Shown here piece after piece: positions 9,440-44,795 of a stretch of 64,000 nt of DNA. The stretch lies in NCBI GenBank assembly GCA_001560895.1, contig CP014326.1, forward strand, positions 632,001 through 696,000, given 5' to 3'. Under the pieces are notes generated by a model that saw only the letters and a list, made by a program, of their open reading frames with translations, ran no database searches and was not told the origin of the DNA. Source of the stretch: Streptococcus mitis. Its GTDB lineage: Bacteria > Bacillota > Bacilli > Lactobacillales > Streptococcaceae. The first letter of the stretch is position 1; every line of letters starts with the position of its first letter. A program made the translations under genes and the position numbers.

Positions 9440-9447
9440 TTGAAATG

Positions 9448-12483: not shown

Positions 12484-15400
12484 ATGAAAGACATTTTTAA
12501 TAAACGTCAACGCTTTTCAATTCGAAAGTTTTCGGTTGGAGTGGCTTCTGTATTAATAGGAATTACCTTGTTTACACCATCCCAGGGAGTACTGGCTTCT
12601 ACGGAAAATAATTTGGCAACAGAGATAGGTGCTAATTCTGAAAAGGAGAATGCGACCCCGACTGTGGAGAAAAAAGAAGAGAATCAAAATTCACCAGAGA
12701 ATCAAGATGCTATCCCCAGTCCAGTCCCAAAAGATACTCCAATAATATCTACAAGAACTACAGAACTTGAGACATCTGGGGATAAAGAAAATAATAGCTT
12801 GACCACAAGGGCTTCCGTGGCGGGTGAAGACAGATCAAGTGCTCCAGCGGTGAGAGCGGCATCGAATCCTTCCGAGATAAAAAAATATGAATTGACTGAG
12901 GAAGATGCTAAAAAAATCAAAGCAGGAGTAATCGGTTCAGAAGGCAATAAGCTTGACAGTTTGTTATTAAACGGCCCTGAGTTAAGTCCAGAAGCTTATA
13001 CAGATAATGACTACTTGAAGGATAAAGAAGAACTTTATATTTATGAAAAAGGCGGGAAAAAGTATGTAGGCTATAATAGTCATCCCTTATTAGAAGATAC
13101 TGATGGTGATGGTATTATTGATAGTAAAGAAAAGCCAGATGAAAAATTAAAATGGAATGTCAGTGAGCGCGATATGATTATGTTCATGGAATTGTCCTAC
13201 CGTGATGATAATTATATTGATAGAGTGCTGGATCATAAGAAACCCTTAACAGAGTCAGAGTTATATAAAAATAATGGTGACAGTAGACCACGTTATGAGT
13301 ATATGATGATGAATAAGGAATTGGGACCTTATTGGGAAAGGAAGAAAAGTTATCATACCTCCAGTGGACTAGATGCTGTCTTGTATGAAACAAAGAGTGA
13401 TTTCTCATATTTACCAAATGGAACTGCTCAAGTGTTAGCCTTTCGTGGAACAAGTGATGCCAAAGATATAGGAACTGATATAACACTTGGATTAGGAAGC
13501 AATCCTCAGCAAGGGATCGATGCAGAAAATATCATGCGTGAACTGGCTAAAGATAAGAGTATTACCAATCTTTATTTGACGGGACATTCTTTAGGAGGAT
13601 ATTTAGTACAACGGGCAATGGTTGAAGCCTATCAGTTGGCATATTCTGACAGTAGAGTCATGTCTTCTAAAGACCAGCAGGCTTATAGAAACTTTTATAA
13701 CAATGTATTAAAAAAAGGAACAACATTCAATGCTCCAAAAGTGAGGACAAATTATTTCTCATCATCTGAATTTTGGCAGAAAGGTCTAGATAGTAAAAAA
13801 ATAGCTAAGTCTGGGAAAATGACACATTATATTGTTGATAATGATTCGACGATAAGTAAAGGCGTCAGCAATGATAGTGATGTTGTTATAAATGTTGGAC
13901 GAACCAGTGGAGGTCATAGTTCACGTTCTTATTTTGAAGCCGATATGATTAATAGACGGTCAGAGTTTATATCTGGGAAACGAATTTCTTTAGATAGGAC
14001 AGGTTATCAAGATAAAAAAATTGCAACAGCTAAATCTGTAGAAAAAGTTGGAGAAACTGTTGTATATAGTAAACGTGGAGATGACATCATTAAGTCAACA
14101 ACTGTTAGTATCAAAGATCCTGATACAGGGCAGATTACTAAAAATACACTTAATGAAGTGTTCAAGAAAGATGGTGCCAAATCAACAGTTGTGGTTACGT
14201 CACTTGAGCCAATTGTTCGTTATGAGAAAGACGCTACAAGACCCAAAGGTGAAGCTAATGTAACAACAGCTGGTACTTCAGGCGCTAGAACAGTAACTAC
14301 AACCTATACTGTGAATCCGACAGATGGTAGCCTTGTTTCGCATGAAGAACCGGCAGTAGTAGTCCCATCCAAACCGACAGTGGTCAAAGTGCCAGCTAAA
14401 GATGAGGTTGAATACCTCAAAGAAGGCGATGATGTGGTTAAGAAGACAACCACTTACGAAGTCAATGCCAGTACAGGTAACCTTGCTCCAACAGAGAAAA
14501 AGGAAATCTTCAAACAAAATGGTGCCAAGGCTAAGTTTGTTGTTACACCAATACAGCCAAGTGTCCGTTATGAAAAAGACTCCACAAGAGCTAGAGGTGG
14601 AGAAAATGTAACAATAGCTGGTACTCCAGGTACCCGAACAGTAACCATCACCTACACGGTTAACCCTACAAATGGTAGACTCATTCCGCATGAAGGCAAA
14701 CCAGTTATCAAATCGTCAATTCCGACAGTGGTCAAGGTGCCAGCTAAGGATGAGGTTGAATACCTCAAAGAGGGTGATAATGTGGTTAAGAAGACTACAA
14801 GTTACGCGGTCAATGCAAGCACAGGTACCCTTACTCCAACAGAGAAAAAGGAAATCTTCAAACAAAATGGTGCCAAGGCTAAGGTTGTTGTTACGCCATT
14901 ACAGCCAAGTGTTCGTTATGATAAAGATGCCACAAGAGCTAGAGGTGGAGAAAATGTAACAATAGCTGGCACTCCAGGTACCCGAACAGTAACCACCACC
15001 TACACGGTTAACCCTACAAATGGTAGACTCATTCCGCATGAAGGCAAACCAGTTATCAAATCGTCAATTTCGACAGTGGTCAAGGTGCCAGCTAAGGATG
15101 AGGTTGAATACCTCAAAGAGGGTGATAATGTGGTTAAGAAGACTACAAGTTACGCGGTCAATGCAAGCACAGGTACCCTTACTCCAACAGAGAAAAAGGA
15201 AATCTTCAAACAAAATAGCGCCAAATCTACAGTTGTGGTTACGCCAATCGAGCCAAGTGTTCGTTATGAAAAAGACACCACAAGAGCCAAAGGTGAAGCA
15301 AATGTAACAATAGCTGGTACTTCAGGCGCTAGAACAGTAACTACAACCTATACTGTGAATCCGACAGATGGCAGCCTCATTCCACATGAAGGCAAACCAG

Positions 15401-19809: not shown

Positions 19810-19875
19810 AGTTAAAATGTAGTCAAAATCTGAACTGTTCATTGTTAAGTGAACAATGAATGTAAAAGATAAAGA

Positions 19876-19917
19876 AACGGCCTTGTTCCTCATTTCAAGA
19901 GGTACAAGGTTGTTTTT
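19876..19917 (+). terminator. Terminator of the first giant gene
   Basis: AACGGCCTTGT (19876-19886) pairs with ACAAGGTTGTT (19904-19914) using two G-U pairs, with inner CCTC/GAGG, then TTT. The homologous hairpin behind the second giant gene keeps the pairing with different bases. Confidence 0.7.
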
Positions 19918-20000
19918 GTATTCTAGAAAAAGTAGATATCAATATTCGTACTTAGAGATCATGGGTTGAAATAAAATATGTACAAATGGATTAGGAATTT

Positions 20001-20481: not shown

Positions 20482-20510
20482 TTGATTAAATATATTGAAA
20501 GTGGTATAAT
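20482..20510 (+). promoter_or_regulatory. Promoter of the second giant gene
   Basis: TTGATT (20482-20487), a 17-nt spacer ending TGG, then TATAAT (20505-20510). It is homologous to the promoter at 32432-32460. Confidence 0.75.
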
Positions 20511-20622
20511 CTAGCTGTCAAAACTATGATGTGAAATGTCTATCATAGTGGTTTTTATTGTTTTATTCCCAGAGGGAATATTGCTTTTAATTTGATTTTG
20601 TATTTTAACATAAGGAGGAACA
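20511..20622 (+). promoter_or_regulatory. Structured 5' leader of the second giant gene
   Basis: Two hairpins are visible: ACTATGAT/ATCATAGT (20523-20530 with 20542-20549), followed by GGTTTTTATTGTTTTATT, and TATTCCC/GGGAATA (20564-20580) with a 3-nt loop. The segment TTTAATTTGATTTTG and the ribosome binding site AAGGAGGAACA are shared with the third giant gene. The first hairpin plus T-rich run resembles a weak attenuator. Confidence 0.5.
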
Positions 20623-23600
20623 ATGGAAAATAAATCAAATTCACTTAATAGAATCAAGCGCCAGCAACGTGAAAAAGTTTTGCGCTTTTCTATTCGTAAG
20701 TATAGTTTCGGTGCCGCTTCAGTTGCTGTTGCAGCGCTGATGTTTTTAGGTGCCCGCGTTGCGAGTGCGGATAGTCTAGTTGACAAGACTTCACAACTTA
20801 ATGCGGGTGTAGTGAACCCTAAGGATAAGGTTGATTTGCCTGAGGATGTTACAGAATCTACTGCAAACAAAGTAGATGAAGGACATAAATCTCCAGAAAA
20901 TCAAGTGCCTGCAGTTCCTGCAAATAACGCGCCTACAGTTGATAAAGCCAAGTTAAGAAAAGTAGTTGAAGAATTAAATGCTCTTCTTTCAACTAAATTA
21001 AACCTTGACGAGTCAGTAGTATCACCTGTCAAAGATAGACTTCAAAAAGGGAAAGAAGCCCTAGAAAGTTCTGAGCTAGCTCAAAAGGATATTGATAAGC
21101 TTGCGGAACTCTTGTCTAAAGATGTGACAGTCGTATCAGCTGCTAAGGAAGCAACTGAGGTTCAAGTAGATAAACAAGTAGATAAACAAGTAGATAAACA
21201 AGTAGATAAAACTGAGAAGCAAGCTGATAACCTAGCCAACCAATCTTCTCCTGAAGTAAGCGCAAGCGAAGAGAGCCAAACTGTATCAGCTAAAAAAGAT
21301 GCTTTGAAAGTATCTGTAGATCAATTGAAGGCAGCAGTTCTGGAATTGCCTGAGCAGGAGACTAGCAAAGAAGTTCTTGAAAAAGCCAATGAACTATTGG
21401 GCTTAGCCCAAGGTGTTCTTGAAAATACAACAGTTTCTCTGAATGAAGTTGAAGATATGAACAAACTTGTGAAGAGAATGTTTAACTCTGTTAAAAACGC
21501 TACAACGCGTTTGAGTTCAGGTTCTCATGATCCGCGTAATGGCAAGAGCATGGGTCAAGGAACAGGTGGAAGAGCTGCAACGGTATCTTCAAGATGGACC
21601 AATCAAGACAATCTATTATCTTATCAACGTTTCTATGGAAGTGATAGAGATGGGAATAAGAGGAATAACGACAGACAATTCGTAGAGCAAAAAGTGGATA
21701 TGACCGGTCGAATTGAGACGATTGATGGGCAAAAATATGTAGTTTACGATGTGTTCTTTAATAATAACGGTCAAAACATAGCTGAACATAGTTATCAACA
21801 GGCATATAGACTATTGTTGCAACCTAAAATCTTAGATTTGCAACCTAACGGATATTATAAAACAGACGCTATTAGAGATTTATACTTTGAAATCTATCGT
21901 AGAAATAATCAAAATGAAGGTGGGACACTCTCACAAAATCCAGAGAAATTTCATCTTGAAAGGAAACTGAATTACCACTTTGCAAATGATAATGAGCGAA
22001 GTCAGAATGGATTTACCTATTTTAACAGTGCAGGTGTCCGTGCATCAGGAGATCATTGGAAAGATATGAGGGATATCTTTAAGGCGAATCAATATGAGCC
22101 TGATTTGGAAAAGGCTGTAAAATTAGAAGGGAATCACAAAGACAAGAGTTATGGGTTAGGATTGAAAACTAACGATAAAACAGCTGCTGTTCATATGCAT
22201 CTAAAAGCAAAATTAAGACCAGATGTAACGGATGAAGAAGTTAGACAAGCATTTACTATAGGTGTTGCAAGCAGTTTTGGTCTGACAACGCACCAATCCT
22301 ATACTTTCGTGTCAGGGAAAGAACCTAATGAAAATGTAGAACCGACTGTTAAACAAAGTACAAAATACCCTATTATCGGTAAAGAGGTTACAAAAAAAGT
22401 TGGAGAATCTCTTGGAAATTTAAATAAACCAGTAGAAATTGGTTTTGTAACGGGTAAGGATGGAAGTACAAGTTTTCCTAACAACACGTCTTGGGATTGG
22501 CCAGATGGACAACCAAATACTGGTACAGCAGGAGTATTCAAGCGTCAAGTAAAAGCTACCTACAGCGACAATACTTCAAATACTACTACTGCTACATTAA
22601 AGGTTATTCCACATAAACCTGCTATTGATCAAAGCTCTGTAAATGAAAAAGCAGGGAAGACTGGGCAAGAGGTTACTGTAAATGTCGGAAACGGAGTGCC
22701 AGATGGTTCGACAGTGAATCTTTACGAAGGTAAGACACTTATCGGAACTGGAAAAACTACTGGAGGCACTGCGAAAATCACAGTTGAAGGAGCTCTACCA
22801 GAAAAGCCTATTACAGCTGAAACAGTTGTGAATAATGGTGAAACAGTAACTTCTGAACGTAGTACTCCTGTAAAACCAACCCCTGAACGAGATACCCAAA
22901 AACCTACATTAGAAATTTCACGAAAAAGCCAAACAGTAGTAGAAGGTGAAAAAGTAACCTTCACAATAACAGCAAGAGATAATAAAGTTGTTACGATAGA
23001 AGGTAAAGATTTCACTGACAAATATGGTGATAGACTTCTTTCTCGTCAAGCAACAAATAATAAGGTAAAGATTACTGACACTGAAAAAATAATTGAAATT
23101 ACTATTACAACTAAGAAAGAAGACGTTGGTAAACCACATGAGATTACTTTCGGAGCTCATGATGATGCAGGTAATAAAGCTGACCCTGTAAAATTTACTT
23201 TCAATGTAACACCACGTGATAACCAAAAACCAATCGTTGAGGTTGGCGGAATTCGTTTAACAGAAAATGAACCACAATCTGCTCAATTTTATGTCTATCG
23301 TGGAGCTACATTTAATCCAACTGTGAAAGCCTGGGATAATTCAGGTAACATTACTTCTATGAGTGTTGAGAACTTACCAAATGGATCTAAAGTTCAAACT
23401 TATACACCTCAAACTGGGAAAGATGGAAGTACGGAAGATAAAAAATACACTACGAGCCTATCTACAGGAACAGTAGCGGATACACAGACACTAGGAGATC
23501 ACGTAGCTAAGTTCAAAATTTCTGATGGTGTAAATAGTGCTACCTATCTGATGAAGTATAAAGTTGTCGATGTTGTTGTAGAAAACACACCTAAGACAGT

Positions 23601-26600
23601 CGAATTAAACAGCAAGTCAGGTGATCCAAATGAATACCTAAATACAGCTGGTAAGCAAGACAAGTCAGGTAAACCAGTTGTAGAATCGCAAGCAGATGTC
23701 CACTTCCCAGGAGGAATGAAATTCCGTTGGGACGATGCTAAAGGATCAGATACGAATTTAACTTTATCTAAAGTAGGAAAGCAAACTCATAAAGCGATTG
23801 CGGTGTTCCCTAAAAATCCAAGTCAGCGTGGTAGTGTCCAAGTATTTGCACCAGAAAAAGCTGAGAGAAATGTTGTTTTCAATGTAGTGGATAATGAAAA
23901 ACCAAAAGCAAGTCTAAATGGAAAAGAGTTATCAGAAACTGCTAATGAACCAATCTTTACAGTTTATCGTGGAGCTACATTTAACCCAGAGCTAAAAGTA
24001 TCGGATAACTCTGGTGTGATTTCTAAAGTAGAAGTTAAGGGAGGACTTCCAAAAGGAGTGAATCCATCTACATTTACAGCTCAAACAGGAAAAACTGAAG
24101 CAACTCCATATGCAGAGCGTTTATCTTCAGGAGCTGTATTGGATACTGAAACTTTAGGAGTACATGAATCAACTATTCATGTAGAAGGAAGTAATCCTTC
24201 AGATAGCCGTGATTTCAAATTCAAGTACCGCGTAGTTGATATTGAAACGAAAAATGTTGATAAAAATGGTATCGCAAAAGTACCAGTTGCTTCAACATTA
24301 AATAAAGATAATAGTTCTAAAAATATTGATGCGCATAACTATCTGAAAGTAGTCGATAGTGAAGATAAAGCAGATCGTGGTAACAATTATTTACCAAGTG
24401 GTATGACTTGGACATGGAAAGACAGAAACGGCGTTAATAAAGATCGAGGAACAACACTTGACAATTCAGGTAAATATACTCGAACTGCAACAGCAATCTT
24501 CCCAGGCACTAAAGCTAATAATATGACAGATGATACTAGCACGACCAGAGATGTATTTGCACCAGCAGAAATCAAGCGTAAAGTAATTCTAGCAGTAACA
24601 CCAACAGCACCTACCGTAGAAGGTAAAGAGAATGGTAGTGTAACAATTACCCCACCAAAACAACCTGATAGTACTAATCAACAAGATATTGATAAAATTA
24701 CTCTTACTTATACACCGACAGGTAAAACAAGTCCAGAAACTGTAACAGTTACGAAATCTGGAAGCAAATGGACTGTAAATGGTAAGTCTGATGATAAAGT
24801 ATCAGTATCACCTGAAGGAGTTGTAACAATTTCTGATGCTGAAATTGCAGATAAAACAGAAGTAACTGCAAAAGTTTCTAAGAACATTGATGGTGTACTT
24901 ACTCTTGAGAGTCCTGTAGCTAGAGGAACAGCAAATGGACCTTTAGCAGCTGAGGTTACAAACCCAGCACCAGTTCCGGAAAAAGCACAAATTACACCAG
25001 TTACAGTTGTGACACCAAACAAACCAGGTTCAAGCATTACAGTAGATGGCCCAGTAAATGGTTTAACAGTAGATGATGAAGGTAAACTTAAAGGAAAACC
25101 AGAGGTAAATGATTGGAAACCAAAAGAAGAAGAACGCACAGTCGAAATTCCGGTTAAAGTTACAAAAGGTGGCGAGACAGTTACTGTGAAAGTTCCAGTT
25201 CCAATTTTACGCGATACAGATGGAGACGGTATTCCAGATAAAGAAGATTCAGATGATGACAATGATGGAATTCCAGATGAGGAAGAAATCAAAAATGGAA
25301 CAGATCCAAAAACACCAACAACTCAAACTCCAGTTGAGATTGAAATTACTCCACAACCAAATGGAGATGCGATTGTAACGCCTAAGAAACCAGGAGGAGG
25401 AACATATCCACCAGGTACTAAGGTAGAAATCCCAGGTGAAGATGGAAACACAATTACTGTTGAAATCGGTAAAGATGGTTCAGGTAAAGTACCAAATGAC
25501 AAACTTCCTAAGAAAGCTGTCCCAGGTACAGGAACAGTAACAGAACCGAACAAGAAACCATCACAACCAGTGAATGTAACAACACCAGCTCGTAAGACAC
25601 CAACAATAGAGTTGAAACCAGATCCTAAGACAGGTGACGTTACAGTAACACCGCAGAGACCAGGAGGAGGAACATATCCACCAGGAACTACGGTAGAAAT
25701 CCCAGGTGAAGATGGTCCAATCACTGTTGAAATCGGTAAAGATGGTTCAGGTAAAGTACCAAATGATAAACTTCCTAAGAAAGATGTTCCAGGTACAGGT
25801 AAGATTACAGAACCAGGTAAACCAGCTGTGGAAGTTCCTAATGTAACAACACCAGCTAAGGTAACACCAGAAACACCAGAAACTGAAAAACCAGTTGAGA
25901 TTGAAATTACTCCACAACCAAATGGAGATGCGATTGTAACGCCTAAGAAACCAGGAGGAGGAACATATCCACCAGGTACTAAGGTAGAAATCCCAGGTGA
26001 AGATGGAAACACAATTACTGTTGAAATCGGTAAAGACGGTTCAGGTAAAGTACCAAATGACAAACTTCCTAAGAAAGCTGTCCCAGGTACAGGAACAGTA
26101 ACAGAACCGAACAAGAAACCATCACAACCAGTGAATGTAACAACACCAGCTCGTAAGACACCAACAATAGAGTTGAAACCAGATCCTAAGACAGGTGACG
26201 TTACAGTAACACCGCAGAGACCAGGAGGAGGAACATATCCACCAGGAACTACGGTAGAAATCCCAGGTGAAGATGGTCCAATCACTGTTGAAATCGGTAA
26301 AGATGGTAAAGGTAAAGTACCAAATGATAAACTTCCTAAGAAAGATGTTCCAGGTACAGGTAAGATTACAGAACCAGGTAAACCAGCTGTGGAAGTTCCT
26401 AATGTAACAACACCAGCTAAGGTAACACCAGAAACACCAGAAACTGAAAAACCAGTTGAGATTGAAATTACTCCACAACCAAATGGAGATGCGATTGTAA
26501 CGCCTAAGAAACCAGGAGGAGGAACATATCCACCAGGTACTAAGGTAGAAATCCCAGGTGAAGATGGAAACACAATTACTGTTGAAATCGGTAAAGACGG

Positions 26601-32431: not shown

Positions 32432-32460
32432 TTGTGTAAATATATTAAAAATGGTATAAT
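32432..32460 (+). promoter_or_regulatory. Promoter of the third giant gene
   Basis: TTGTGT (32432-32437), a 17-nt spacer ending TGG, then TATAAT (32455-32460). Confidence 0.7.
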
Positions 32461-32587: not shown

Positions 32588-35500
32588 ATGGAAAATAAAT
32601 CAAATTCGCTCAATAGAATCAAGCGCCAGCAACGTGAAAAAGTTTTGCGCTTTTCTATTCGTAAGTATAGTTTCGGTGCCGCTTCAGTAGCTGTTGCAGC
32701 GCTGATGTTTTTGGGTGCCCGCGCTGCGAGTGCGGATAGTCTAGTTGACAAGACTTCACAACTTAATACAGGTGTAGTGAACCCTAAAGATAAGGTCGAT
32801 TCGCCTGTGGATGTTGCAGCATCTACTGACAATAAAGTAGACGCAGAAAATCAAGCGCTTACAACTGCTGCACCTAGCGCGTCTACAGTTGATAAAGCCA
32901 AGTTGAAAAAAGTAGTTGAAGAATTAAATGCTCTTCTTTCAACTAAATTAAATCTTGACGAGTCAGTAGTATCGCCTGTTAAAGACAGACTTCAAAAAGG
33001 GAAAGAAGCCCTAGAAAGTTCTGAGCTAGCTCAAAAGGATATCGATGAACTTGTAGAACTCTTGTCTAAAGATGTGACAGTTGTATCAGCTGCTAAGGAA
33101 GTAACTGAGGTTCAAGTTGATAAACAAGCAGATAAAACTGAGAAGCCAGCCGACAATCTAGCAAGTCAAACTTCTCCTGAAGTAAGCGCAAGCGAAGAGA
33201 ACCAAACTGTATCAACTAAAAAAGATTCTTTGAAAGTATCTGTAGATCAATTGCAGGCAGCTGTTTTGGAATTGCCTGAGCAGGAGACCAGCAAAGAAGT
33301 TCTTGAAAAAGCCAATGAACTATTGGGCTTGGCACAAGGTGTTCTTGAAAATACAACAGTTTCTTTGACCGATGTTGAAGATATGACAAAACGTGTGAAG
33401 AGAATGTTTAACTCTGTTAAAAACGCTACAACACGTTTGACTTCAGGTGCTCGTGACTCACGTAATGGCAAGAGCATGGCTCAAGGTACAAACTTTAGAG
33501 CAAATGGTGAAATTAATCAAGGTGCTTTAACTAATGTTAAATATTTTGCTTCTGTCGATCCGAGAGAGAACGGTGGACGAAGAACAATAAATGATAATCC
33601 TGAGTTTACTAGAAATAAGACTGATATTAAGGCAACTTATGTACAAGATAGTGAAGGTAAATGGATCGTCTATGATGTCTTTTTCAATAACGATGGGAAA
33701 AAGATGACGGAAAGTTCATACCAACAACAGTATTATTTCCAAGCACCATTTAATATCATGGATCCTTCTAATACAGTAAGAGATTTAAGGTTCACACGTT
33801 ATAGTCCTAAGAATCCAAATGCTGGTAAAAAACTTTCTGATGGATTTGAAGCGTTTAATCAATATGGGAACACAGCTTATATCTCAAATCCATGGGGACA
33901 ACAATACAAAATTTTTAATAATGATGGATACTCATTTTACGATCCAAGTTCAGGGGTAACTCGTAATGATCAAAGAAAGGATGTATTTAAGAACAACGAA
34001 AATGATCCTACATTAAACACACTTACGAAAGATAAAAATGGAAAATATCCTAAATTATCATATTATTTAGGTGTCAAATTAGGAAGAGAGAGTACAAACT
34101 ATGCTATGCATATGCATGCTAAGATTAAAATAAGAGATAATGTGACTCCTCAAGAAGCAGCTCAATACGGTCGTGTCTATGCAGCCTCAACAACATCAGG
34201 ATGGACTACTAATCAGTCTTATATTATGGGGGCAACAGGTTCTCGTTTACAAAATGATCCAGATGCACCAAAAGATCCAATTAAAGGTTTAACCGTTACA
34301 AAAACAGTTGGAGATGACGCAGGAGACCCAATAAACCCTGTATCTTCAGGTTATGTTAAACATGGAAAAAACGGAACTTTCCCTCCAGGTATGAACTGGA
34401 CTTGGAAAGATAATAAGTCACCAAGTACAGCAGAAGCCGGAGTATTCAAGTATAAATCTATTGCAACTTATAAAGATGGTTCAAGTTCAGAAGATAAAAA
34501 TTCTGGTTCAGATGGAACAGTTACATTAAACGTTAAACCAAAACAACCGACGATTACATCAAGTGTTGCCAATAAAAAAGGCTTACCAGGTCAACAAATT
34601 ACTGTAAATGTCGGAACCGGCGTGCCAAACGGTTCGACAGTGAAACTTTATGATGGTAATAGAGTTATTGGAACTGGAACAACTAATGGACAGACTGCTA
34701 CAGTTACAGTTACAGAAGCTTTACCAGGAAATCCTATTAAGGCTGAAACAGTAGTTACTAATGCTAATGGAACAGTAACTTCTGATAAAAGTAACCCTGT
34801 TACTCCAACAGAAGCACCAGATAACCAACCACCTACATTAACAATCTCACCAGCTAGCCAAAACGTAGTAGAAGGTAAAACAGTAACCTTCACAGTAACA
34901 GCAAGAGACGATAAACATGTTAATTTTGATCCTAGTGATTTAACAACGAAATATGGTAAGAGACTTATTACAGGGAATGTATCTGCAACTCCATTAACAA
35001 ACACGGATACTGAACAATCAAGACGAATTACAATTACAACAACTGCAGAAGATGTTGGTAAAACGAATACGATTACATTTAAGGCTACTGATAATGCAGG
35101 TCACGCAGCTAAACCAGTAACATTTACTTTCACTGTAACATCTCGTGACAAGATAGCTCCAACAATTACAGCAGGTGATGCTACAGTAACTAAAAACGAA
35201 CCAATCACGCCAATCCCTGTAACAGCTGTAGATAATCCAGGTGGAGTTGGAATGCGTGATAATAATCCAATTGAGGTAAGCAATTTACCACAAGGATTAA
35301 AATATGAAAATGGCAAAATTACAGGAACTACGAATGCCAAAACAGGATTCTATACTGTAAAAATTAAAGCATATGATAAAAATAATAATTCTTCAGAAAA
35401 AACAATAAGAATTACTGTTCAAGAGCAAGCTAGCAAATATAATCCGACAGGAGACACGTTAACTGTAAACCAAGGTCAGCCAATCACAGATGATGCAGTA

Positions 35501-38500
35501 AAAGCAAAAGTGAAGAACTATGCACCAGGAACATTAACGGTACAAAGTAAACCAACTTCAACTGCAACAGCAGGAAATGCAGGAAATGCGGTAGTAAAAG
35601 TAACCTATTCAGATGGATCAAGTGATACTGTAAATGTACCAGTTACAGTAAAAGACGTAACAGGACCAACAATCACAGCCAATGATACAACTGTAACTAA
35701 AAACGAGCCAATTACACCAATCCCTGTAACAGCTGTAGATAATACAGGTGGTGTTGGAATGCGTGATAATAATCCAATTCAGGTAAGCAATTTACCACAA
35801 GGATTAAAATACGAAAATGGTCAAATTACAGGAACTACGAATGCTAAAACAGGATTCTATACAGTACGAATCACAGCATACGATAAAAACAATACGCCAT
35901 CAACCAAAGCAATCAGAATCACTGTTCAAGAGCAAGCTAGCAAATATAATCCGACAGGAGACACGTTAACAGTTAACCAAGGTCAGCCAATCACAGATGA
36001 AGCAGTAAAAGCAAAAGTAACAAATTATGGCCCTGGAACATTGACAGTAGAAAGCAAACCAACTTCAACTGCAACAGCAGGAAATGCAGGAAATGCGGTA
36101 GTTAAAGTTACATATCCAGATGGATCAAGTGATACTGTAGATGTACCAGTTACAGTAAAAGACGTAACAGGCCCAACAATTACAGCAGAAAGCGCAATAG
36201 TAACTAAAAACACACCAATCACACCAATTCCTGTAACAGCTGTAGATAATACAGGTGGAGTTGGAATGCGTGATAATAATCCAATTCAGGTAAGCAATTT
36301 ACCACAAGGATTAAAATACGAAAATGGTCAAATTACAGGAACTACGAACGCTAAGACAGGTTACTATACTGTAAAAATCACAGCGTATGATAAGAACAAT
36401 ACGCCATCAACCAAATCAATCAGAATCACTGTTCAAGATCAGTTAGCAGGAACAGTAACAGGAAAAACTGTCCCAGAAAAAACACCAGTACCAGCAAATA
36501 CTAAGGTAGTAACACCAAATAGACCAGGTACAACGATTACAACAGATAAACCAGTAAATGGTTTAACAGTTGATAACGGCGGAAATCTAGTAGGAACACC
36601 AACAGTAGACAATTGGGAACCAAAAGAAGAAGAACGCACAGTCGAAATTCCAGTTAAAGTTAAAAATGGTGACGAAGAAGTTGTAGTGGATGTTCCTATA
36701 ACAATCCAACGCGATACAGATGGAGACGGCATTCCAGATGTGACTGATCCAGACGATGACAACGATGGAATTCCAGATACAGAAGATGCAAATCCAAAAG
36801 TAGCTGATAAATTAACAGGAACAGTAACAGGAAAAACTGTACCAGAGAAAACACCTGTCCCAGCGAATACTAAGGTAGTAACACCAAACAAACCAGGTAC
36901 AACGATTACAACAGATAAACCAGTAAATGGTTTAACAGTTGATAACGGCGGAAATCTAGTTGGAACACCAACAGTAGACAATTGGGAACCAAAAGAAGAA
37001 GAACGTACAGTTGAAATTCCAGTTAAACTGAAAAAAGGTACAGAAGAAGTTGTAGTTAAAGTTCCAGTTAAAATTCAACGCGATACAGATGGAGACGGTA
37101 TTCCAGATGTGACTGATCCAGACGATGACAACGATGGAATTCCAGATACAGAAGATGCAAATCCAAAAGTAGCTGATAAATTAACAGGAACAGTAACAGG
37201 AAAAACTGTACCAGAGAAAACACCTGTCCCAGCGAATACTAAGGTAGTAACACCAAACAAACCAGGTACAACGATTACAACAGATAAACCAGTAAATGGT
37301 TTAACAGTTGATAACGGCGGAAATCTAGTTGGAACACCAACAGTAGACAATTGGGAACCAAAAGAAGAAGAACGTACAGTAGAGATTCCAGTTAAACTGA
37401 AAAAAGGCACAGAAGAAGTTGTAGTTAAAGTTCCAGTTAAAATTCAACGCGATACAGATGGAGACGGTATTCCAGATGTGACTGATCCAGACGATGACAA
37501 CGATGGAATTCCAGATACAGAAGATGCAAATCCAAAAGTAGCGGATAAATTAACAGGAACAGTAACAGAAAAAACTGTCCCAGAAAAAACACCGGTACCA
37601 GCAAATACTAAGGTAATCACACCAAACAAACCAGGTACAACGATTACAACAGATAAACCAGTAAATGGTTTAACAGTGGATAATGACGGAAATCTAGTAG
37701 GAACACCAACAGTAGATAATTGGGAACCAAAAGAAGAAGAACGCACAGTCGAAATTCCAGTTAAACTGAAAAAAGGCACAGAAGAAGTTGTAGTCAAAGT
37801 TCCAGTTAAAATTCAACGTGATACAGATGGAGACGGTATTCCAGATGTGACTGATCCAGACGATGACAACGATGGAATTCCAGATGAGGAAGAAATCACA
37901 AATGGAACAGATCCTAAGACACCAACAACTCAAACTCCTACAATCGAAATTACTCAACAACCAAATGGAAATGCGATTGTAACACCTAAGAAACCAGATG
38001 GAAAACCATATCCACCAGGAACTAAGGTAGAAATCCCAGGTAAAGATAAGGATCACCCAATCACAGTAACAATCGGTGACAATGGATCAGGTGAAGTACC
38101 AAATGACAAACTTCCTAAGAAAGCTGTTCCAGGAAAAGGAACAGTAACAGAACCTAATAAGAACCCATCAAAACCAGTAGATGTAACAACACCAGCTCAT
38201 AAGACACCAAAACTAGAGTTGGATCAAGATCCTGAGACAGGTGACGTAACAGTAACACCTAAGAAACCAGATGGTTCAACATTCCCACCAGGAACTAAGG
38301 TAGAAATCCCAGGTGAAAATGGTCCAATCACAGTAACAATCGGTGAAGACGGAAAAGGTAAAGTACCAAACAGTGAATTACCAGAAGGAAAAGTCCCAGG
38401 AACAGGTAAGATTACAGAGCCAGGTAAACCAACGGAAGAAGTTCCAGTTGAAACACCAGGTAAGATAACGCCAGGTGCTCCAACAACAGAACAACCAGTT

Positions 38501-41500
38501 GCGATTGAAATTAATCAAAAACCAAATGGTGATGCAGTAGTAACGCCTAAGAAAGAAGATGGAAAACCATACCCACCAGGAACTAAGGTAGAAATCCCAG
38601 GTGAAGATAAAGATGGTAACCCAATTACAATCACCGTTACGATTGGCGATAATGGTTCAGGTGAAGTACCAAATGACAATCTTCCTAAGAAAGCTATCCC
38701 AGGAAAAGGAAAAGTAACAGAACCTAATAAGAACCCATCACAACCAGTTCCAGTTGAAACACCGGCTCATAAGACACCAACACTAGATGTTGAACAAGAT
38801 CCTAAGACAGGTGATGTAACAGTAACACCTAAGAAACCAGATGGCTCACCATTCCCATCAGGAACTAAGGTAGAAATTCCAGGTAAAGATAAAGACCACC
38901 CAATCACAGTCACAATCGGTGAAGACGGTAAAGGTAAAGTACCAAACAGTGAATTACCAGAAGGAAAAGTACCAGGAACAGGTAAGGTTACAGAACCAGG
39001 TAAACCAACGGAAGAAGTTCCAGTTGAAACACCAGCTCGTAAGATACCAACACTAGATGTTGAACAAGATCCTAAGACAGGTGACGTTACAGTAACACCG
39101 AAGAGACCAGATGGGTCAACATACCCACCAGGAACTACGGTAGAAATTCCAGGTAAAGATAAAGACCACCCAATCACTGTTACAATCGATGAAGAAGGTA
39201 AAGGTAAAGTACCAAATGCTGAATTACCAGAAGGAAAAGTACCAGGAACAGGTAAGATTACAGAACCAGGTAGACCAACAGAAGAAGTTCCTAATGTAAC
39301 AACACCGGCTCATAAGACGCCAACACTAGATGTTGAACAAGATCCTAAGACAGGTGATGTAACAGTAACACCGAAGAGACCAGATGGTTCAACATTCCCA
39401 CCAGGAACTAAGGTAGAAATTCCAGGTAAAGATAAGGATCACCCAATCACAGTAACAATCGGTGAAGACGGTAAAGGTAAAGTACCAAACAGTGAATTAC
39501 CAGAAGGTAAAGTTCCAGGAACAGGTAAGATTACAGAACCAGGTAGACCAGCGGAAGAAGTTCCAAATGTAACAACACCGGCTCATAAGACACCAACACT
39601 AGATGTTGAACAAGATCCTAAGACAGGTGATGTAACAGTAACACCGAAGAGACCAGATGGTTCAACATACCCACCAGGAACTAAGGTAGAAATCCCAGGT
39701 AAAGATGGTAACCCAATCACAGTAACAATCGGTGAAGACGGTAAAGGTAAAGTACCAAACAGTGAATTACCAGAAGGTAAAGTTCCAGGAACAGGTAAGA
39801 TTACAGAACCAGGTAGACCAACGGAAGAAGTTCCTAATGTAACCACACCGGCTCATAAGACACCAACACTAGATGTTGAACAAGATCCTAAGACAGGTGA
39901 TGTAACAGTAACACCGAAGAGACCAGATGGTTCAACATTCCCACCAGGAACTAAGGTAGAAATTCCAGGTAAAGATAAGGATCACCCAATCACAGTAACA
40001 ATCGGTGAAGACGGTAAAGGTAAAGTACCAAACAGTGAATTACCAGAAGGTAGAGTTCCAGGAACAGGTAAGATTACAGAACCAGGTAGACCAACGGAAG
40101 AAGTTCCAAATGTAACAACACCGGCTCATAAGACACCAACACTAGATGTTGAACAAGATCCTAAGACAGGTGATGTAACAGTAACACCGAAGAGACCAGA
40201 TGGTTCAACATTCCCACCAGGAACTAAGGTAGAAATCCCAGGTAAAGATGGTAACCCAATCACAGTAACAATCGGTGAAGACGGTAAAGGTAAAGTACCA
40301 AACAGTGAACTACCAGAAGGTAAAGTTCCAGGAACAGGTAAGATTACAGAACCAGGAAAACCAACAGTGGAAGTTCCAGTAGAAACTCCAGCTAAGGTAA
40401 CACCAGAAACACCAGTAACTGAAAAACCAGGTAAGATTGAAATTACTCAACAACCAAATGGAAATGCGATTGTAACGCCTAAGAAACCAGACGGTTCAAC
40501 ATACCCACCAGGAACTACGGTAGAAATTCCAGGTGAAAATGGCACACCAATCACAGTTACAATTGGCGACAATGGTTCAGGTGAAGTACCAAATGACAAC
40601 CTTCCTAAGAAAGATGTCCCAGGTACAGGAACAGTAACCGAACCTAACAAGAAACCATCACAACCAGTAGATGTAACAACACCAGCTCGTAAGACACCAA
40701 CACTAGATGTTGAACAAGATCCTAAGACAGGTGACGTTACAGTAACACCGAAGAGACCAGATGGGTCAACATACCCACCAGGAACTAAGGTAGAAATCCC
40801 AGGTAAAGATGGTAACCCAATCACAGTAACAATCGGTGAAGACGGTAAAGGTAAAGTACCAAACAGTGAACTACCAGAAGGTAAAGTTCCAGGAACAGGT
40901 AAGATTACAGAACCAGGAAAACCAACAGTGGAAGTTCCAGTAGAAACTCCAGCTAAGGTAACACCAGAAACACCAGTAACTGAAAAACCAGGTAAGATTG
41001 AAATTACTCAACAACCAAATGGAAATGCGATTGTAACGCCTAAGAAACCAGACGGTTCAACATACCCACCAGGAACTACGGTAGAAATTCCAGGTGAAAA
41101 TGGCACACCAATCACAGTTACAATTGGCGACAATGGTTCAGGTGAAGTACCAAATGACAACCTTCCTAAGAAAGATGTCCCAGGTACAGGAACAGTAACC
41201 GAACCTAACAAGAAACCATCACAACCAGTAGATGTAACAACACCAGCTCGTAAGACACCAACACTAGATGTTGAACAAGATCCTAAGACAGGTGACGTTA
41301 CAGTAACACCTAAGAAACCAGATGGCTCAACATTCCCACCAGGAACTAAGGTAGAAATCCCAGGTAAAGATGGTAACCCAATCACAGTAACAATCGGTGA
41401 AGACGGTAAAGGTAAAGTACCAAACAGTGAATTACCAGAAGGTAAAGTTCCAGGAACAGGTAAGATTACAGAACCAGGAAAACCAACAGTGGAAGTTCCA

Positions 41501-44500
41501 GTAGAAACTCCAGCTAAGGTAACACCAGAAACACCAGTAACTGAAAAACCAGGTAAGATTGAAATTACTCAACAACCAAATGGAAATGCGATTGTAACGC
41601 CTAAGAAACCAGACGGTTCAACATACCCACCAGGAACTACGGTAGAAATTCCAGGTGAAAATGGCACACCAATCACAGTTACAATTGGCGACAATGGTTC
41701 AGGTGAAGTACCAAATGACAACCTTCCTAAGAAAGATGTCCCAGGTACAGGAACAGTAACCGAACCTAACAAGAAACCATCACAACCAGTAGATGTAACA
41801 ACACCAGCTCGTAAGACACCAACACTAGATGTTGAACAAGATCCTAAGACAGGTGACGTTACAGTAACACCTAAGAAACCAGATGGCTCAACATACCCAC
41901 CAGGAACTAAGGTAGAAATCCCAGGTAAAGATGGTAACCCAATCACAGTCACAATCGGTGAAGACGGTAAAGGTAAAGTACCAAACAGTGAACTACCAGA
42001 AGGTAAAGTTCCAGGAACAGGTAAGATTACAGAACCAGGTCAACCAGCAGTTGAAGTTCCAGTAGAAACTCCAGCTAAGGTAACACCAGAAACACCAGTA
42101 ACTGAAAAACCAGGTAAGATTGAAATTACTCAACAACCAAATGGAAATGCGATTGTAACGCCTAAGAAACCAGACGGTTCAACATACCCACCAGGAACTA
42201 CGGTAGAAATTCCAGGTGAAAATGGCACACCAATCACAGTTACAATTGGCGACAATGGTTCAGGTGAAGTACCAAATGACAACCTTCCTAAGAAAGATGT
42301 CCCAGGTACAGGAACAGTAACCGAACCTAACAAGAAACCATCACAACCAGTAGATGTAACAACACCAGCTCGTAAGACACCAACACTAGATGTTGAACAA
42401 GATCCTAAGACAGGTGACGTTACAGTAACACCTAAGAAACCAGATGGCTCAACATTCCCACCAGGAACTAAGGTAGAAATCCCAGGTAAAGATGGTAACC
42501 CAATCACAGTAACAATCGGTGAAGACGGTAAAGGTAAAGTACCAAACAGTGAATTACCAGAAGGTAAAGTTCCAGGAACAGGTAAGATTACAGAACCAGG
42601 AAAACCAACAGTGGAAGTTCCAGTAGAAACTCCAGCTAAGGTAACACCAGAAACACCAGTAACTGAAAAACCAGGTAAGATTGAAATTACTCAACAACCA
42701 AATGGAAATGCGATTGTAACGCCTAAGAAACCAGACGGTTCAACATACCCACCAGGAACTACGGTAGAAATTCCAGGTGAAAATGGCACACCAATCACAG
42801 TTACAATTGGCGACAATGGTTCAGGTGAAGTACCAAATGACAACCTTCCTAAGAAAGATGTCCCAGGTACAGGAACAGTAACCGAACCTAACAAGAAACC
42901 ATCACAACCAGTAGATGTAACAACACCAGCTCGTAAGACACCAACACTAGATGTTGAACAAGATCCTAAGACAGGTGACGTTACAGTAACACCTAAGAAA
43001 CCAGATGGCTCAACATACCCACCAGGAACTAAGGTAGAAATCCCAGGTAAAGATGGTAACCCAATCACAGTCACAATCGGTGAAGACGGTAAAGGTAAAG
43101 TACCAAACAGTGAATTACCAGAAGGTAAAGTTCCAGGAACAGGTAAGATTACAGAACCAGGAAAACCAACAGTGGAAGTTCCAGTAGAAACTCCAGCTAA
43201 GGTAACACCAGAAACACCAGTAACTGAAAAACCAGGTAAGATTGAAATTACTCAACAACCAAATGGAAATGCGATTGTAACGCCTAAGAAACCAGACGGT
43301 TCAACATACCCACCAGGAACTACGGTAGAAATTCCAGGTGAAAATGGCACACCAATCACAGTTACAATTGGCGACAATGGTTCAGGTGAAGTACCAAATG
43401 ACAACCTTCCTAAGAAAGATGTCCCAGGTACAGGAACAGTAACCGAACCTAACAAGAAACCATCACAACCAGTAGATGTAACAACACCAGCTCGTAAGAC
43501 ACCAACACTAGATGTTGAACAAGATCCTAAGACAGGTGACGTTACAGTAACACCTAAGAAACCAGATGGCTCAACATACCCACCAGGAACTAAGGTAGAA
43601 ATCCCAGGTAAAGATGGTAACCCAATCACAGTCACAATCGGTGAAGACGGTAAAGGTAAAGTACCAAACAGTGAACTACCAGAAGGTAAAGTTCCAGGAA
43701 CAGGTAAGATTACAGAACCAGGTCAACCAGCAGTTGAAGTTCCAGTAGAAACTCCAGCTAAGGTAACACCAGAAACACCAGTAACTGAAAAACCAGGTAA
43801 GATTGAAATTACTCAACAACCAAATGGAAATGCGATTGTAACGCCTAAGAAACCAGACGGTTCAACATACCCACCAGGAACTACGGTAGAAATTCCAGGT
43901 GAAAATGGCACACCAATCACAGTTACAATTGGCGACAATGGTTCAGGTGAAGTACCAAATGACAACCTTCCTAAGAAAGATGTCCCAGGTACAGGAACAG
44001 TAACCGAACCTAACAAGAAACCATCACAACCAGTAGATGTAACAACACCAGCTCGTAAGACACCAACACTAGATGTTGAACAAGATCCTAAGACAGGTGA
44101 CGTTACAGTAACACCTAAGAAACCAGATGGCTCAACATACCCACCAGGAACTAAGGTAGAAATCCCAGGTAAAGATGGTAACCCAATCACAGTCACAATC
44201 GGTGAAGACGGTAAAGGTAAAGTACCAAACAGTGAATTACCAGAAGGTAAAGTTCCAGGAACAGCTAAGATTACTGAACCAGGTCAACCAGCAGTTGAAG
44301 TTCCAGTAGAAACTCCAGCTAAGGTAACACCAGAAACACCAGTAACTGAAAAACCAGTTGCACCAGTGACACCTGATACGCCAGTCAAACCTGACACTAA
44401 TGGAGGTTCTGGTCAAGATACACCTGCACCAGCTACTCCAACTCCAAATGCAGTTACTCCGAATGCAGATCAGGTAGATACTAAGACTACTGTTGATAAT

Positions 44501-44635
44501 GGAGCTAAGTCAAATGATTCTCAAAATGTATTGCCAAATACAGGAACAGAATCAAATGCTGCTCTTGCATCTCTAGGACTTCTTGGACTATTGAGTGGAT
44601 TTGGACTTGTAGCTCGCAAGAAAAAAGAAGACTAA
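32588..44635 (+). CDS. Giant LPXTG surface protein (4015 residues) with Rib-like, calcium-loop and 187-residue repeats
   Basis: A paralogue of the preceding gene. The YSIRK signal and first 290 residues or so are nearly identical. The head domain (about 300-560) is related but diverged (VYDVFFNNDG...SYQQQY, YAMHMHAKIK...TNQSYIMG). Ig-like units follow. Next come 169-residue units (about 860-1285) pairing a putative-Ig part (LPQGLKYENGKITGTT) with a Rib-like part (DGSSDTVNVPVTVKD). Four 123-residue units with DTDGDGIPDVTDPDDDNDG calcium loops follow (about 1286-1777). Then comes a long stalk of YPPGTKVEIPG modules including seven near-identical 187-residue units. It ends with LPNTG at 3982, a membrane helix and RKKKED. 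The last roughly 200 nt are identical to the second gene. It is probably a wall-anchored adhesin with an exposed head; the ligand is unknown. Confidence 0.85.
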   Translation: MENKSNSLNRIKRQQREKVLRFSIRKYSFGAASVAVAALMFLGARAASADSLVDKTSQLNTGVVNPKDKVDSPVDVAASTDNKVDAENQALTTAAPSASTVDKAKLKKVVEELNALLSTKLNLDESVVSPVKDRLQKGKEALESSELAQKDIDELVELLSKDVTVVSAAKEVTEVQVDKQADKTEKPADNLASQTSPEVSASEENQTVSTKKDSLKVSVDQLQAAVLELPEQETSKEVLEKANELLGLAQGVLENTTVSLTDVEDMTKRVKRMFNSVKNATTRLTSGARDSRNGKSMAQGTNFRANGEINQGALTNVKYFASVDPRENGGRRTINDNPEFTRNKTDIKATYVQDSEGKWIVYDVFFNNDGKKMTESSYQQQYYFQAPFNIMDPSNTVRDLRFTRYSPKNPNAGKKLSDGFEAFNQYGNTAYISNPWGQQYKIFNNDGYSFYDPSSGVTRNDQRKDVFKNNENDPTLNTLTKDKNGKYPKLSYYLGVKLGRESTNYAMHMHAKIKIRDNVTPQEAAQYGRVYAASTTSGWTTNQSYIMGATGSRLQNDPDAPKDPIKGLTVTKTVGDDAGDPINPVSSGYVKHGKNGTFPPGMNWTWKDNKSPSTAEAGVFKYKSIATYKDGSSSEDKNSGSDGTVTLNVKPKQPTITSSVANKKGLPGQQITVNVGTGVPNGSTVKLYDGNRVIGTGTTNGQTATVTVTEALPGNPIKAETVVTNANGTVTSDKSNPVTPTEAPDNQPPTLTISPASQNVVEGKTVTFTVTARDDKHVNFDPSDLTTKYGKRLITGNVSATPLTNTDTEQSRRITITTTAEDVGKTNTITFKATDNAGHAAKPVTFTFTVTSRDKIAPTITAGDATVTKNEPITPIPVTAVDNPGGVGMRDNNPIEVSNLPQGLKYENGKITGTTNAKTGFYTVKIKAYDKNNNSSEKTIRITVQEQASKYNPTGDTLTVNQGQPITDDAVKAKVKNYAPGTLTVQSKPTSTATAGNAGNAVVKVTYSDGSSDTVNVPVTVKDVTGPTITANDTTVTKNEPITPIPVTAVDNTGGVGMRDNNPIQVSNLPQGLKYENGQITGTTNAKTGFYTVRITAYDKNNTPSTKAIRITVQEQASKYNPTGDTLTVNQGQPITDEAVKAKVTNYGPGTLTVESKPTSTATAGNAGNAVVKVTYPDGSSDTVDVPVTVKDVTGPTITAESAIVTKNTPITPIPVTAVDNTGGVGMRDNNPIQVSNLPQGLKYENGQITGTTNAKTGYYTVKITAYDKNNTPSTKSIRITVQDQLAGTVTGKTVPEKTPVPANTKVVTPNRPGTTITTDKPVNGLTVDNGGNLVGTPTVDNWEPKEEERTVEIPVKVKNGDEEVVVDVPITIQRDTDGDGIPDVTDPDDDNDGIPDTEDANPKVADKLTGTVTGKTVPEKTPVPANTKVVTPNKPGTTITTDKPVNGLTVDNGGNLVGTPTVDNWEPKEEERTVEIPVKLKKGTEEVVVKVPVKIQRDTDGDGIPDVTDPDDDNDGIPDTEDANPKVADKLTGTVTGKTVPEKTPVPANTKVVTPNKPGTTITTDKPVNGLTVDNGGNLVGTPTVDNWEPKEEERTVEIPVKLKKGTEEVVVKVPVKIQRDTDGDGIPDVTDPDDDNDGIPDTEDANPKVADKLTGTVTEKTVPEKTPVPANTKVITPNKPGTTITTDKPVNGLTVDNDGNLVGTPTVDNWEPKEEERTVEIPVKLKKGTEEVVVKVPVKIQRDTDGDGIPDVTDPDDDNDGIPDEEEITNGTDPKTPTTQTPTIEITQQPNGNAIVTPKKPDGKPYPPGTKVEIPGKDKDHPITVTIGDNGSGEVPNDKLPKKAVPGKGTVTEPNKNPSKPVDVTTPAHKTPKLELDQDPETGDVTVTPKKPDGSTFPPGTKVEIPGENGPITVTIGEDGKGKVPNSELPEGKVPGTGKITEPGKPTEEVPVETPGKITPGAPTTEQPVAIEINQKPNGDAVVTPKKEDGKPYPPGTKVEIPGEDKDGNPITITVTIGDNGSGEVPNDNLPKKAIPGKGKVTEPNKNPSQPVPVETPAHKTPTLDVEQDPKTGDVTVTPKKPDGSPFPSGTKVEIPGKDKDHPITVTIGEDGKGKVPNSELPEGKVPGTGKVTEPGKPTEEVPVETPARKIPTLDVEQDPKTGDVTVTPKRPDGSTYPPGTTVEIPGKDKDHPITVTIDEEGKGKVPNAELPEGKVPGTGKITEPGRPTEEVPNVTTPAHKTPTLDVEQDPKTGDVTVTPKRPDGSTFPPGTKVEIPGKDKDHPITVTIGEDGKGKVPNSELPEGKVPGTGKITEPGRPAEEVPNVTTPAHKTPTLDVEQDPKTGDVTVTPKRPDGSTYPPGTKVEIPGKDGNPITVTIGEDGKGKVPNSELPEGKVPGTGKITEPGRPTEEVPNVTTPAHKTPTLDVEQDPKTGDVTVTPKRPDGSTFPPGTKVEIPGKDKDHPITVTIGEDGKGKVPNSELPEGRVPGTGKITEPGRPTEEVPNVTTPAHKTPTLDVEQDPKTGDVTVTPKRPDGSTFPPGTKVEIPGKDGNPITVTIGEDGKGKVPNSELPEGKVPGTGKITEPGKPTVEVPVETPAKVTPETPVTEKPGKIEITQQPNGNAIVTPKKPDGSTYPPGTTVEIPGENGTPITVTIGDNGSGEVPNDNLPKKDVPGTGTVTEPNKKPSQPVDVTTPARKTPTLDVEQDPKTGDVTVTPKRPDGSTYPPGTKVEIPGKDGNPITVTIGEDGKGKVPNSELPEGKVPGTGKITEPGKPTVEVPVETPAKVTPETPVTEKPGKIEITQQPNGNAIVTPKKPDGSTYPPGTTVEIPGENGTPITVTIGDNGSGEVPNDNLPKKDVPGTGTVTEPNKKPSQPVDVTTPARKTPTLDVEQDPKTGDVTVTPKKPDGSTFPPGTKVEIPGKDGNPITVTIGEDGKGKVPNSELPEGKVPGTGKITEPGKPTVEVPVETPAKVTPETPVTEKPGKIEITQQPNGNAIVTPKKPDGSTYPPGTTVEIPGENGTPITVTIGDNGSGEVPNDNLPKKDVPGTGTVTEPNKKPSQPVDVTTPARKTPTLDVEQDPKTGDVTVTPKKPDGSTYPPGTKVEIPGKDGNPITVTIGEDGKGKVPNSELPEGKVPGTGKITEPGQPAVEVPVETPAKVTPETPVTEKPGKIEITQQPNGNAIVTPKKPDGSTYPPGTTVEIPGENGTPITVTIGDNGSGEVPNDNLPKKDVPGTGTVTEPNKKPSQPVDVTTPARKTPTLDVEQDPKTGDVTVTPKKPDGSTFPPGTKVEIPGKDGNPITVTIGEDGKGKVPNSELPEGKVPGTGKITEPGKPTVEVPVETPAKVTPETPVTEKPGKIEITQQPNGNAIVTPKKPDGSTYPPGTTVEIPGENGTPITVTIGDNGSGEVPNDNLPKKDVPGTGTVTEPNKKPSQPVDVTTPARKTPTLDVEQDPKTGDVTVTPKKPDGSTYPPGTKVEIPGKDGNPITVTIGEDGKGKVPNSELPEGKVPGTGKITEPGKPTVEVPVETPAKVTPETPVTEKPGKIEITQQPNGNAIVTPKKPDGSTYPPGTTVEIPGENGTPITVTIGDNGSGEVPNDNLPKKDVPGTGTVTEPNKKPSQPVDVTTPARKTPTLDVEQDPKTGDVTVTPKKPDGSTYPPGTKVEIPGKDGNPITVTIGEDGKGKVPNSELPEGKVPGTGKITEPGQPAVEVPVETPAKVTPETPVTEKPGKIEITQQPNGNAIVTPKKPDGSTYPPGTTVEIPGENGTPITVTIGDNGSGEVPNDNLPKKDVPGTGTVTEPNKKPSQPVDVTTPARKTPTLDVEQDPKTGDVTVTPKKPDGSTYPPGTKVEIPGKDGNPITVTIGEDGKGKVPNSELPEGKVPGTAKITEPGQPAVEVPVETPAKVTPETPVTEKPVAPVTPDTPVKPDTNGGSGQDTPAPATPTPNAVTPNADQVDTKTTVDNGAKSNDSQNVLPNTGTESNAALASLGLLGLLSGFGLVARKKKED
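35186..36440 (+). repeat. 507-nt repeats (putative-Ig plus Rib-like units)
   Basis: GTAACTAAAAAC landmarks recur at 35186, 35693 and 36200, exactly 507 nt apart (169 residues). There are two full units and a partial third lacking the Rib-like half. Confidence 0.85.
36443..37918 (+). repeat. Four 369-nt repeats with calcium-binding loops
   Basis: Units begin at 36443, 36812, 37181 and 37550. Each 123-residue unit has an Ig/Rib-like part (EKTPVPANTKVVTPN) and ends in DTDGDGIPD...DDDNDGIPD loops of the thrombospondin-type-3 kind. The second gene has a single unit of this type. Confidence 0.85.
37930..44354 (+). repeat. YPPGTKVEIPG module array with seven 561-nt units
   Basis: The first part (37930-40435) mixes single B-type modules of about 270-280 nt, many with KDKDHPI. 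From 40436 there are seven nearly identical 561-nt units at 40436, 40997, 41558, 42119, 42680, 43241 and 43802. The same period as in the second gene shows common origin. Confidence 0.9.
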
Positions 44636-44794: not shown

Positions 44795-44795
44795 G

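Follow-up and report, generated by a model that had tools for sequence, protein, structure and literature searches.

Three giant surface-protein genes between lgt and hemW

The window analysed here is a 64-kb stretch of the genome of Streptococcus mitis (contig CP014326.1), a genome of 2.17 Mb in a single contig that we denote G000 (G and L numbers are our handles for genomes and loci; coordinates refer to the window, and features lie on its + strand, unless stated otherwise). Between lgt and hemW it carries three consecutive genes for giant wall-anchored proteins, the third of which is preceded by a 9-bp leader repeat whose copy number varies among relatives. As a first-pass annotation of this DNA had stated, the three open reading frames (ORFs) at 12484-19809, 20623-32055 and 32588-44635 are all on the + strand and free of stops, and they encode 2441, 3810 and 4015 amino acids (aa). 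Each protein has Pfam YSIRK and Gram_pos_anchor matches above the cut-off and LPNTG at its end, and the common tail claimed for them was recovered as similarity of the tail and 3' flank (82.6% between genes 1 and 2 over 19543-19956; 84.5% between genes 1 and 3 over 284 bp). Their N-terminal domains differ, also as claimed: the three heads are different, those of genes 2 and 3 being 32-39% identical. The possibility that the three genes are an assembly artefact of one gene was ruled out, as the sequence is a single contig in which the heads and intergenic stretches differ, and as another genome (G001) has the identical slot order. We refer to the positions of genes 1, 2 and 3 as slots A, B and C.

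Genes 2 (20623..32055) and 3 (32588..44635) follow the same plan, with a YSIRK signal, a helical stem, a head, an immunoglobulin (Ig)-like part, a Big_11 stalk and LPNTG (Pfam). Repeat scans and Pfam searches resolved the gene 2 stalk (25331..31646) into 561-bp units with two Big_11 domains each, and the gene 3 stalk (38758..44305) into Big_11 units of the same length. The first seven units of gene 2 were 99.3-100% identical in succession and the last six of gene 3 98.8-99.6%, with 63-98% in four later pairs of gene 2 and 32-76% in three earlier pairs of gene 3. Pfam marked 23 Big_11 stretches in each gene, and the 47 matches listed genome-wide all fell within the three window genes. Gene 3 also contains TSP3-like repeats (369 bp, 3.9 copies; 36443..37885). 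This predicted domain architecture marks the products of both genes as stalked and adhesin-like. A 1532-aa ORF antisense to the gene 2 stalk (25323-29921, - strand) was rejected as a probable by-product of repeat composition.

The gene 2 head (21535..22572) aligned with the gene 3 head (33452..34507) at 34% identity. When they were compared by sequence with solved structures, the gene 2 head stretch matched Fap1 at its end (E 2e-6), and the gene 3 head gave no match below E 0.1. The modelled fold of the gene 3 head appears to fit Streptococcus suis Fhb/SadP best, an assignment that we make with medium confidence. Weighing against it are the mean predicted local distance difference test score (pLDDT) of the model, 67.9, and the weakness of the Foldseek result taken alone. 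Unlike Fhb/SadP, with which it shares 10% sequence identity, the gene 3 head sits in a giant stalked protein.

Gene 1 (slot A, 12484..19809) encodes a YSIRK signal, a hydrolase-like head, G5 repeats and an LPNTG tail, as judged from Pfam and relatives, and its first 520 aa are 78-95% identical in eight relatives. The head (12838..14049) carries the motif GHSLGG. In an alignment of 17 slot A heads, the nucleophile Ser of GxSxG, a later Asp and a His were invariant in all 17, the Asp and His having been chosen by eye. The Pfam match of the head to Lipase_3 (class 3 lipase) was below the curated cut-off (18.5 versus 22 bits), and a structure model (pLDDT 55) was set aside, its esterase/lipase matches being too weak for use. 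The G5-type repeats (14171..17882; repeat scan, Pfam) have a 348-bp unit in 10.7 copies with 79-97% successive identity. Slot A heads were found at 20 loci in named genomes of S. mitis, S. pseudopneumoniae, S. shenyangsis, S. hohhotensis, S. taonis and other Streptococcus.

The first-pass annotation had also given each gene its own promoter and terminator, which could be confirmed in part. By eye, an extended -10 element (TGGTATAAT) precedes each gene, that of gene 3 being TGG TATAAT with the -10 box at 32455..32460, but in the promoter consensus scan only gene 2 had a 10/12 site; gene 1 had 9/12 sites, and for gene 3 the + strand gave none. Similarly, the terminator scan listed none at the right place, but folding gives a long hairpin after each gene. 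Those after gene 1 (19870..19930, -23.6 kcal/mol) and gene 2 (32110..32172, -28.8 kcal/mol) are likely terminators, and the one after gene 3 (44735..44802, -31.2 kcal/mol) is joined to the hemW promoter. The gene 2 leader (20505..20622) comprises a -10 at 20505, two degenerate 9-bp units recognized by eye, hairpins and a ribosome-binding site. An intergenic element (ACTCAATGAAAATCAAAGAGC...) lies between genes 1 and 2 (20000-20110); it recurs, reversed, between the promoter and the start of slot A in the relatives L009, L020 and L025.

The left border (10476..12083) consists of lgt (10476-11288; TIGR00544, 231.6 bits) and two small genes (11289-11672 and 11688-12083), in the same order beside lgt in the relatives read, and is preceded by HPr kinase. 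The right border is hemW (44812..45942, start set by eye; TIGR00539, 377.8 bits), followed by a thioesterase-like gene and a HAD hydrolase. Two further LPXTG frames were observed nearby, one of 2433 aa ending at the start of the window (226-351) and one of 2189 aa, with one internal stop, ending about 9.5 kb before it (G000:C1:622430-622549).

Heads are exchanged between strains at a variable site

The general order of the site is lgt, two small genes, a variable interval and hemW. We located lgt and hemW in 147 Streptococcus genomes, and 50 comparable ones entered a tree; those left out were G053 (unrelated genes between the two), G079 (lgt 92%), in which a YSIRK gene follows the small genes, and genomes with lgt and hemW far apart or on unread contigs. 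Sites were first called empty or filled by eye from lists, after which the 33 empty ones were checked on the DNA and the filled ones on sequence as well. The site was empty in 33 of the 50 genomes and filled in 17. At empty sites, lgt and hemW flank only the two small genes, and 54-122 bp separate the second small gene from the hemW match; one has an 833-bp gap, where the hemW match is split. In the nine empty-site gaps that were printed, a terminator-like hairpin and the hemW promoter could be seen by eye.

The 17 filled genomes have one or more giant YSIRK genes inserted. Both ends lie on one contig in eight of them (G000, G001, G031, G045, G085, G087, G108 and G145), and in the other nine, where the contig is broken, the interval was read starting from lgt. 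The hemW end was printed for 11 filled relatives; its final ~170 bp are closely similar in all of them, contain a hairpin and connect to the hemW promoter. Genes that are complete at this site encode 1759 to 4438 aa, a range that spans different lineages. Three genes in a row were present in two of the eight filled intervals on one contig, in one of which (G001) the first gene is interrupted before its tail.

The window genome has 26 LPXTG matches, seven of them in frames of at least 3800 aa, which is the highest count of such frames in the seven genomes compared; in the six relatives, matches number 15-31 and such frames 1-4 per genome, the largest being of 7108 aa. Because all six relatives have at least one, giant LPXTG frames are usual in this clade. 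The earlier claim that such a concentration of giants is uncommon is thus to be narrowed: three in a row is unusual, but giants themselves are common in the clade.

In a tree of lgt and hemW, flank genes that may themselves recombine and so limit it, the site was filled in 15 of 21 genomes of the mitis clade (the cut being chosen by us) and in 2 of 29 elsewhere. The empty or filled state requires at least six changes on this tree, compared with a mean of 14.4 (range 10-17) for shuffled labels, and therefore tracks lineage yet flips within it. In the S. mitis clade, the lgt-hemW interval is a surface-protein locus of variable content, with none to three very long proteins. An invariant, long-known adhesin set, which the first-pass annotation had raised as the counter-case, does not describe this highly variable site.

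Several observations concern individual members of the family. G045 has a 2572-aa gene with a 7-copy array off the site, on another contig beside a transposase-like frame. Slot B is broken in L016 (G145; 1978-12833), with frames of 474, 2079 and 545 aa, and in L018 (G092; 1-4066), with frames of 354 and 999 aa, the latter running off the contig. L123 (G106 contig 14) opens on a slot A-type tail with a slot B gene behind it and closes with lgt and a slot A start, an order that could reflect a rearrangement or an assembly fold.

To compare the proteins by segment, we listed 14 slot B/C proteins, of which 11 were compared and three were too short. Genes 2 and 3 of the window have leader, signal and stem in common, with 85.8% DNA identity over 1.1 kb, and their segments are 81/83% identical in the stem and 32/39% in the head. 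Between gene 2 and the slot B protein of G001, in contrast, the head is more alike (71/70%) than the first stem segment (48%), with 68% in the second. The slot C protein of G001 has a stem related to that of gene 2 (71/79%) and an unrelated head (22/16%); this head resembles that of the G085 slot B protein (79/69%), whereas the stems of the two are 22/25% identical (28/56% when segmented on the G085 protein). The gene 2 of G076 shows 95.7% identity to that of the window over its first 760 residues, with 91-100% per segment. These chimeric identities point to recombination with other strains and not to duplication alone. They show head exchange between strains at the level of the compared sequences and bear out the earlier suggestion of growth by duplication and module exchange, as genes 2 and 3 have similar 5' ends and divergent heads, and heads are swapped with relatives.

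A leader repeat of variable length

The variable-length leader repeat is the most unusual part of the locus and was absent from the first-pass annotation. In the window it is present in two copies (32463..32480) directly after the gene 3 -10 box. Its consensus, AGCTGTGAT, stands behind the -10 box of most B/C genes. A search of 284 genus genomes for two units plus GT gave 31 matches, in 27 of the genomes, and all 31 lie in the leader of a YSIRK gene of the B/C family; the reversed pattern, used as a control, gave none. The array was not found as a general genomic repeat, since in the 284 genomes it stood only before this gene family. Outside the genus, a two-unit match was found in 2 of 128 genomes, inside reading frames of ~150 codons. 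Among the 15 array sites of the 147-genome sample, 11 lie within the lgt-hemW interval or, on the contig that carries lgt, immediately behind the small genes; the other four comprise the off-site array of G045 and one in G076 and two in G106 away from lgt or on unplaceable contigs.

Every copy number from 2 to 15 was represented among the 27 complete arrays, the window's included; these counts omit four incomplete arrays and leave variant units uncounted, which would add 1-2 in L092, L103 and L109. Units within one array are mostly identical. Copy number differed in eight of nine pairs with similar leaders, L099 and L101 being equal, and the three differing pairs in which both flanks are at least 93% alike had 12/11, 6/9 and 15/4 copies. 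In 23 of 26 cases 1-2 bases separate the -10 box from the array, and in the remaining three the gap is filled by variant units. A loose -35 (TTG or TTT), 16-18 bp from the -10, could be matched in 26 of the 28 arrays for which 50 bp or more of upstream sequence was available; 22 of these also have an extended TG. No exact array of at least four copies of a 5-9-mer was present in the window.

The RNA of the unit is predicted to pair with itself, and an array folds as a single hairpin that grows with copy number (n); the opposite strand folds far less (-16.8 versus -55.3 kcal/mol at n = 10). Two predicted helices follow. In hairpin 1 (32474..32501), the last repeat unit pairs with CATCATAG; 98.7% of cells are paired, and one-sided changes occur in three of eight pairs. 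Hairpin 2 (32506..32544) varies in sequence in the leader alignment with its pairing kept (99.4% of cells, counted in the 22 leaders, out of 29, that have letters at these positions), and five of eight pairs are changed on both sides, as expected of compensatory changes among relatives. Both helices jointly are 99.0% paired, compared with 34-68% in slid controls, a comparison that favours the structure because it was derived from one of the sequences compared. No more than 9 of 500 column shuffles reached any of the five measures. From the last unit onward, folding z ranged from -1.0 to -5.3 in 17 leaders tested, three of them weaker than -2. Rfam gave no RNA family at gathering score over the window, the one chance-level match (E 0.26) being on the opposite strand.

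Among the 23 other LPXTG genes of the window genome, 15 also had their leaders scanned, with approximate starts of which at least two (L133, L136) are evidently wrong. Before a 4406-aa LPXTG frame near C1:1807181 (L124/L144), TTGACA-17-TATAAT is followed by six bases and then by (TGTATG)13.7. This hexamer pattern occurred in 8 of 147 genomes, always before the same gene (backwards control, none), with n from 3.7 to 13.7 and closely similar flanks. Two AT runs lie elsewhere. The first, (AT)15 at the centre of an inverted repeat that may be a small mobile palindrome, stands ~220 bp ahead of a 4182-aa YSIRK LPXTG frame (L128, G000:C1 near 357320). The second, (AT)11, precedes the -10 box of an LPXTG frame of 4306 aa whose signal is, by eye, serine-rich repeat (SRR)-like (L129, G000:C1 near 1749897).

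Interpretation and relation to known systems

We regard it as probable that the lgt-hemW interval is a mosaic site for the integration and exchange of giant wall-anchored proteins, whose expression would be tuned by the leader repeat. Recombination in the shared ends would swap heads, and the species concerned are naturally competent. Near-identical stalk units would lengthen and shorten the rod, and slippage would change the copy number of the leader array. The array RNA would form a hairpin at the 5' end of the mRNA, longer with more copies, and so alter the output of each giant. The 5'-terminal hairpin might act on early transcription or on mRNA decay, or the array might be a binding site whose effect depends on copy count. 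A population would show a changing adhesin set, and the window strain, with two copies, would sit at the short end. More tentatively, the locus may exemplify a contingency system of S. mitis-clade streptococci, Gram-positive organisms, in which giant adhesin genes have hypervariable repeats directly behind their promoters and their output is tuned by the length of a 5'-terminal hairpin, unrelated 9-bp and 6-bp repeats having arisen at the same place in two families, in addition to head exchange at a fixed site.

Several findings weigh against a role of the repeat in expression. In the window, gene 3 is preceded by just two copies and gene 2 by degenerate units, and the leaders of L014, L027 and window gene 2 have no array of at least two units. 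When 560 units of equal composition were ranked by folding, the repeat unit came 14th, and 3.8% of random 9-mers folded equally well, so that self-folding is suggestive only. No pair of hairpin 1 has two-sided changes, and one leader has this hairpin broken; hairpin 2 is missing in this form from 7 of 29 leaders (window gene 2 included), which have a shorter hairpin instead. Folding z is weak for window gene 2 (-1.0), L027 (-1.6) and L042 (-1.2), and 12 of the 15 other LPXTG leaders have no repeat, with one in the corresponding place and two AT runs elsewhere. The leaders without an array and the low count in the window would suit an ordinary accessory LPXTG islet, gained and lost by recombination, in which the array is a neutral by-product of slippage without effect on expression, as slippage arrays can drift. 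We consider this unlikely, given the confinement of the array to this leader among the 284 genus genomes, its position 1-2 bases behind the -10 box in 23 of 26 cases, the compensatory changes in the RNA behind it and the unrelated repeat at the corresponding position before another giant gene.

The leader might also be a regulated RNA, an attenuator or a protein-binding element, in which the repeats are multiple binding sites and copy number sets the strength of a response and not an on/off state. Hairpin 2 is followed in most leaders by a U-rich stretch (TTGCTTTTT), as in an attenuator, hairpins are predicted near the ribosome-binding site, and the uniformity of units within an array would also fit. 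However, Rfam matched no family and no regulator was found among the ten neighbouring genes scanned, and this explanation appears distinctly doubtful to us. Recent tandem duplication in the window genome alone, without strain exchange, would account for the 85.8% identity of the 5' ends of genes 2 and 3 and for their similar stalks, but it is highly improbable in view of the 95.7% identity of the start of gene 2 in G076, the matching slot order of G001 and a gene 2 head that is closer to heads of other strains than to that of gene 3.

The preferred reading, a mosaic site with repeat-tuned expression, joins two themes that are already known, giant periscope-like adhesins and phase variation by simple sequence repeats (SSRs). 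Periscope Proteins (PMC9704523) are likewise single-chain wall-anchored rods with highly identical tandem repeats and an N-terminal head, and repeat number varies there; the seven gene 2 and six gene 3 units that are 98.8-100% identical in succession agree with this pattern, the other units being lower. The stalk units, which have Big_11 matches in Pfam, may fold singly and form a rod of this type. Unlike in Periscope Proteins, the heads here are exchanged at a fixed chromosomal site and the leaders have a length-variable repeat of their own. In Haemophilus influenzae hmw1A, a 7-bp repeat overlaps the -10 of P2 and extends into the 5' untranslated region (UTR), and more copies result in less HMW1A (PMC8262952). 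Both systems have a tandem repeat at the -10/5' UTR of a large adhesin gene, with copy number varying among isolates, but the unit there is 7 bp in a Gram-negative organism, and here it is 9 bp in a Gram-positive one with structured hairpins behind the repeat; the accessible portions of the hmw1A paper describe none behind the 7-bp repeat. As in SSR contingency loci, a short array stands at the promoter or leader of a surface gene (31/31) and copy number differs between close pairs (8/9). By analogy, the leader array may alter expression.

PsrP/SRR proteins and the zmpB-linked giants of S. mitis (PMC6722419) are also giant LPXTG proteins of patchy distribution, but they have other loci and other repeats, and the lgt-hemW site is not mentioned in the accessible portions of that paper, nor did those of PMC4863584 contain anything on it. 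In the open-access literature searched, as far as its text was accessible, no leader repeats of this kind were found in S. mitis, nor was the union of both themes at a mosaic cassette site with a structured leader; among the literature matches listed for the 9-mer, none concerned streptococcal leaders. If true, the preferred reading would explain how a commensal of the mouth and throat varies the tips of its giant adhesins and, perhaps, the amount displayed, without frame-shift switches.
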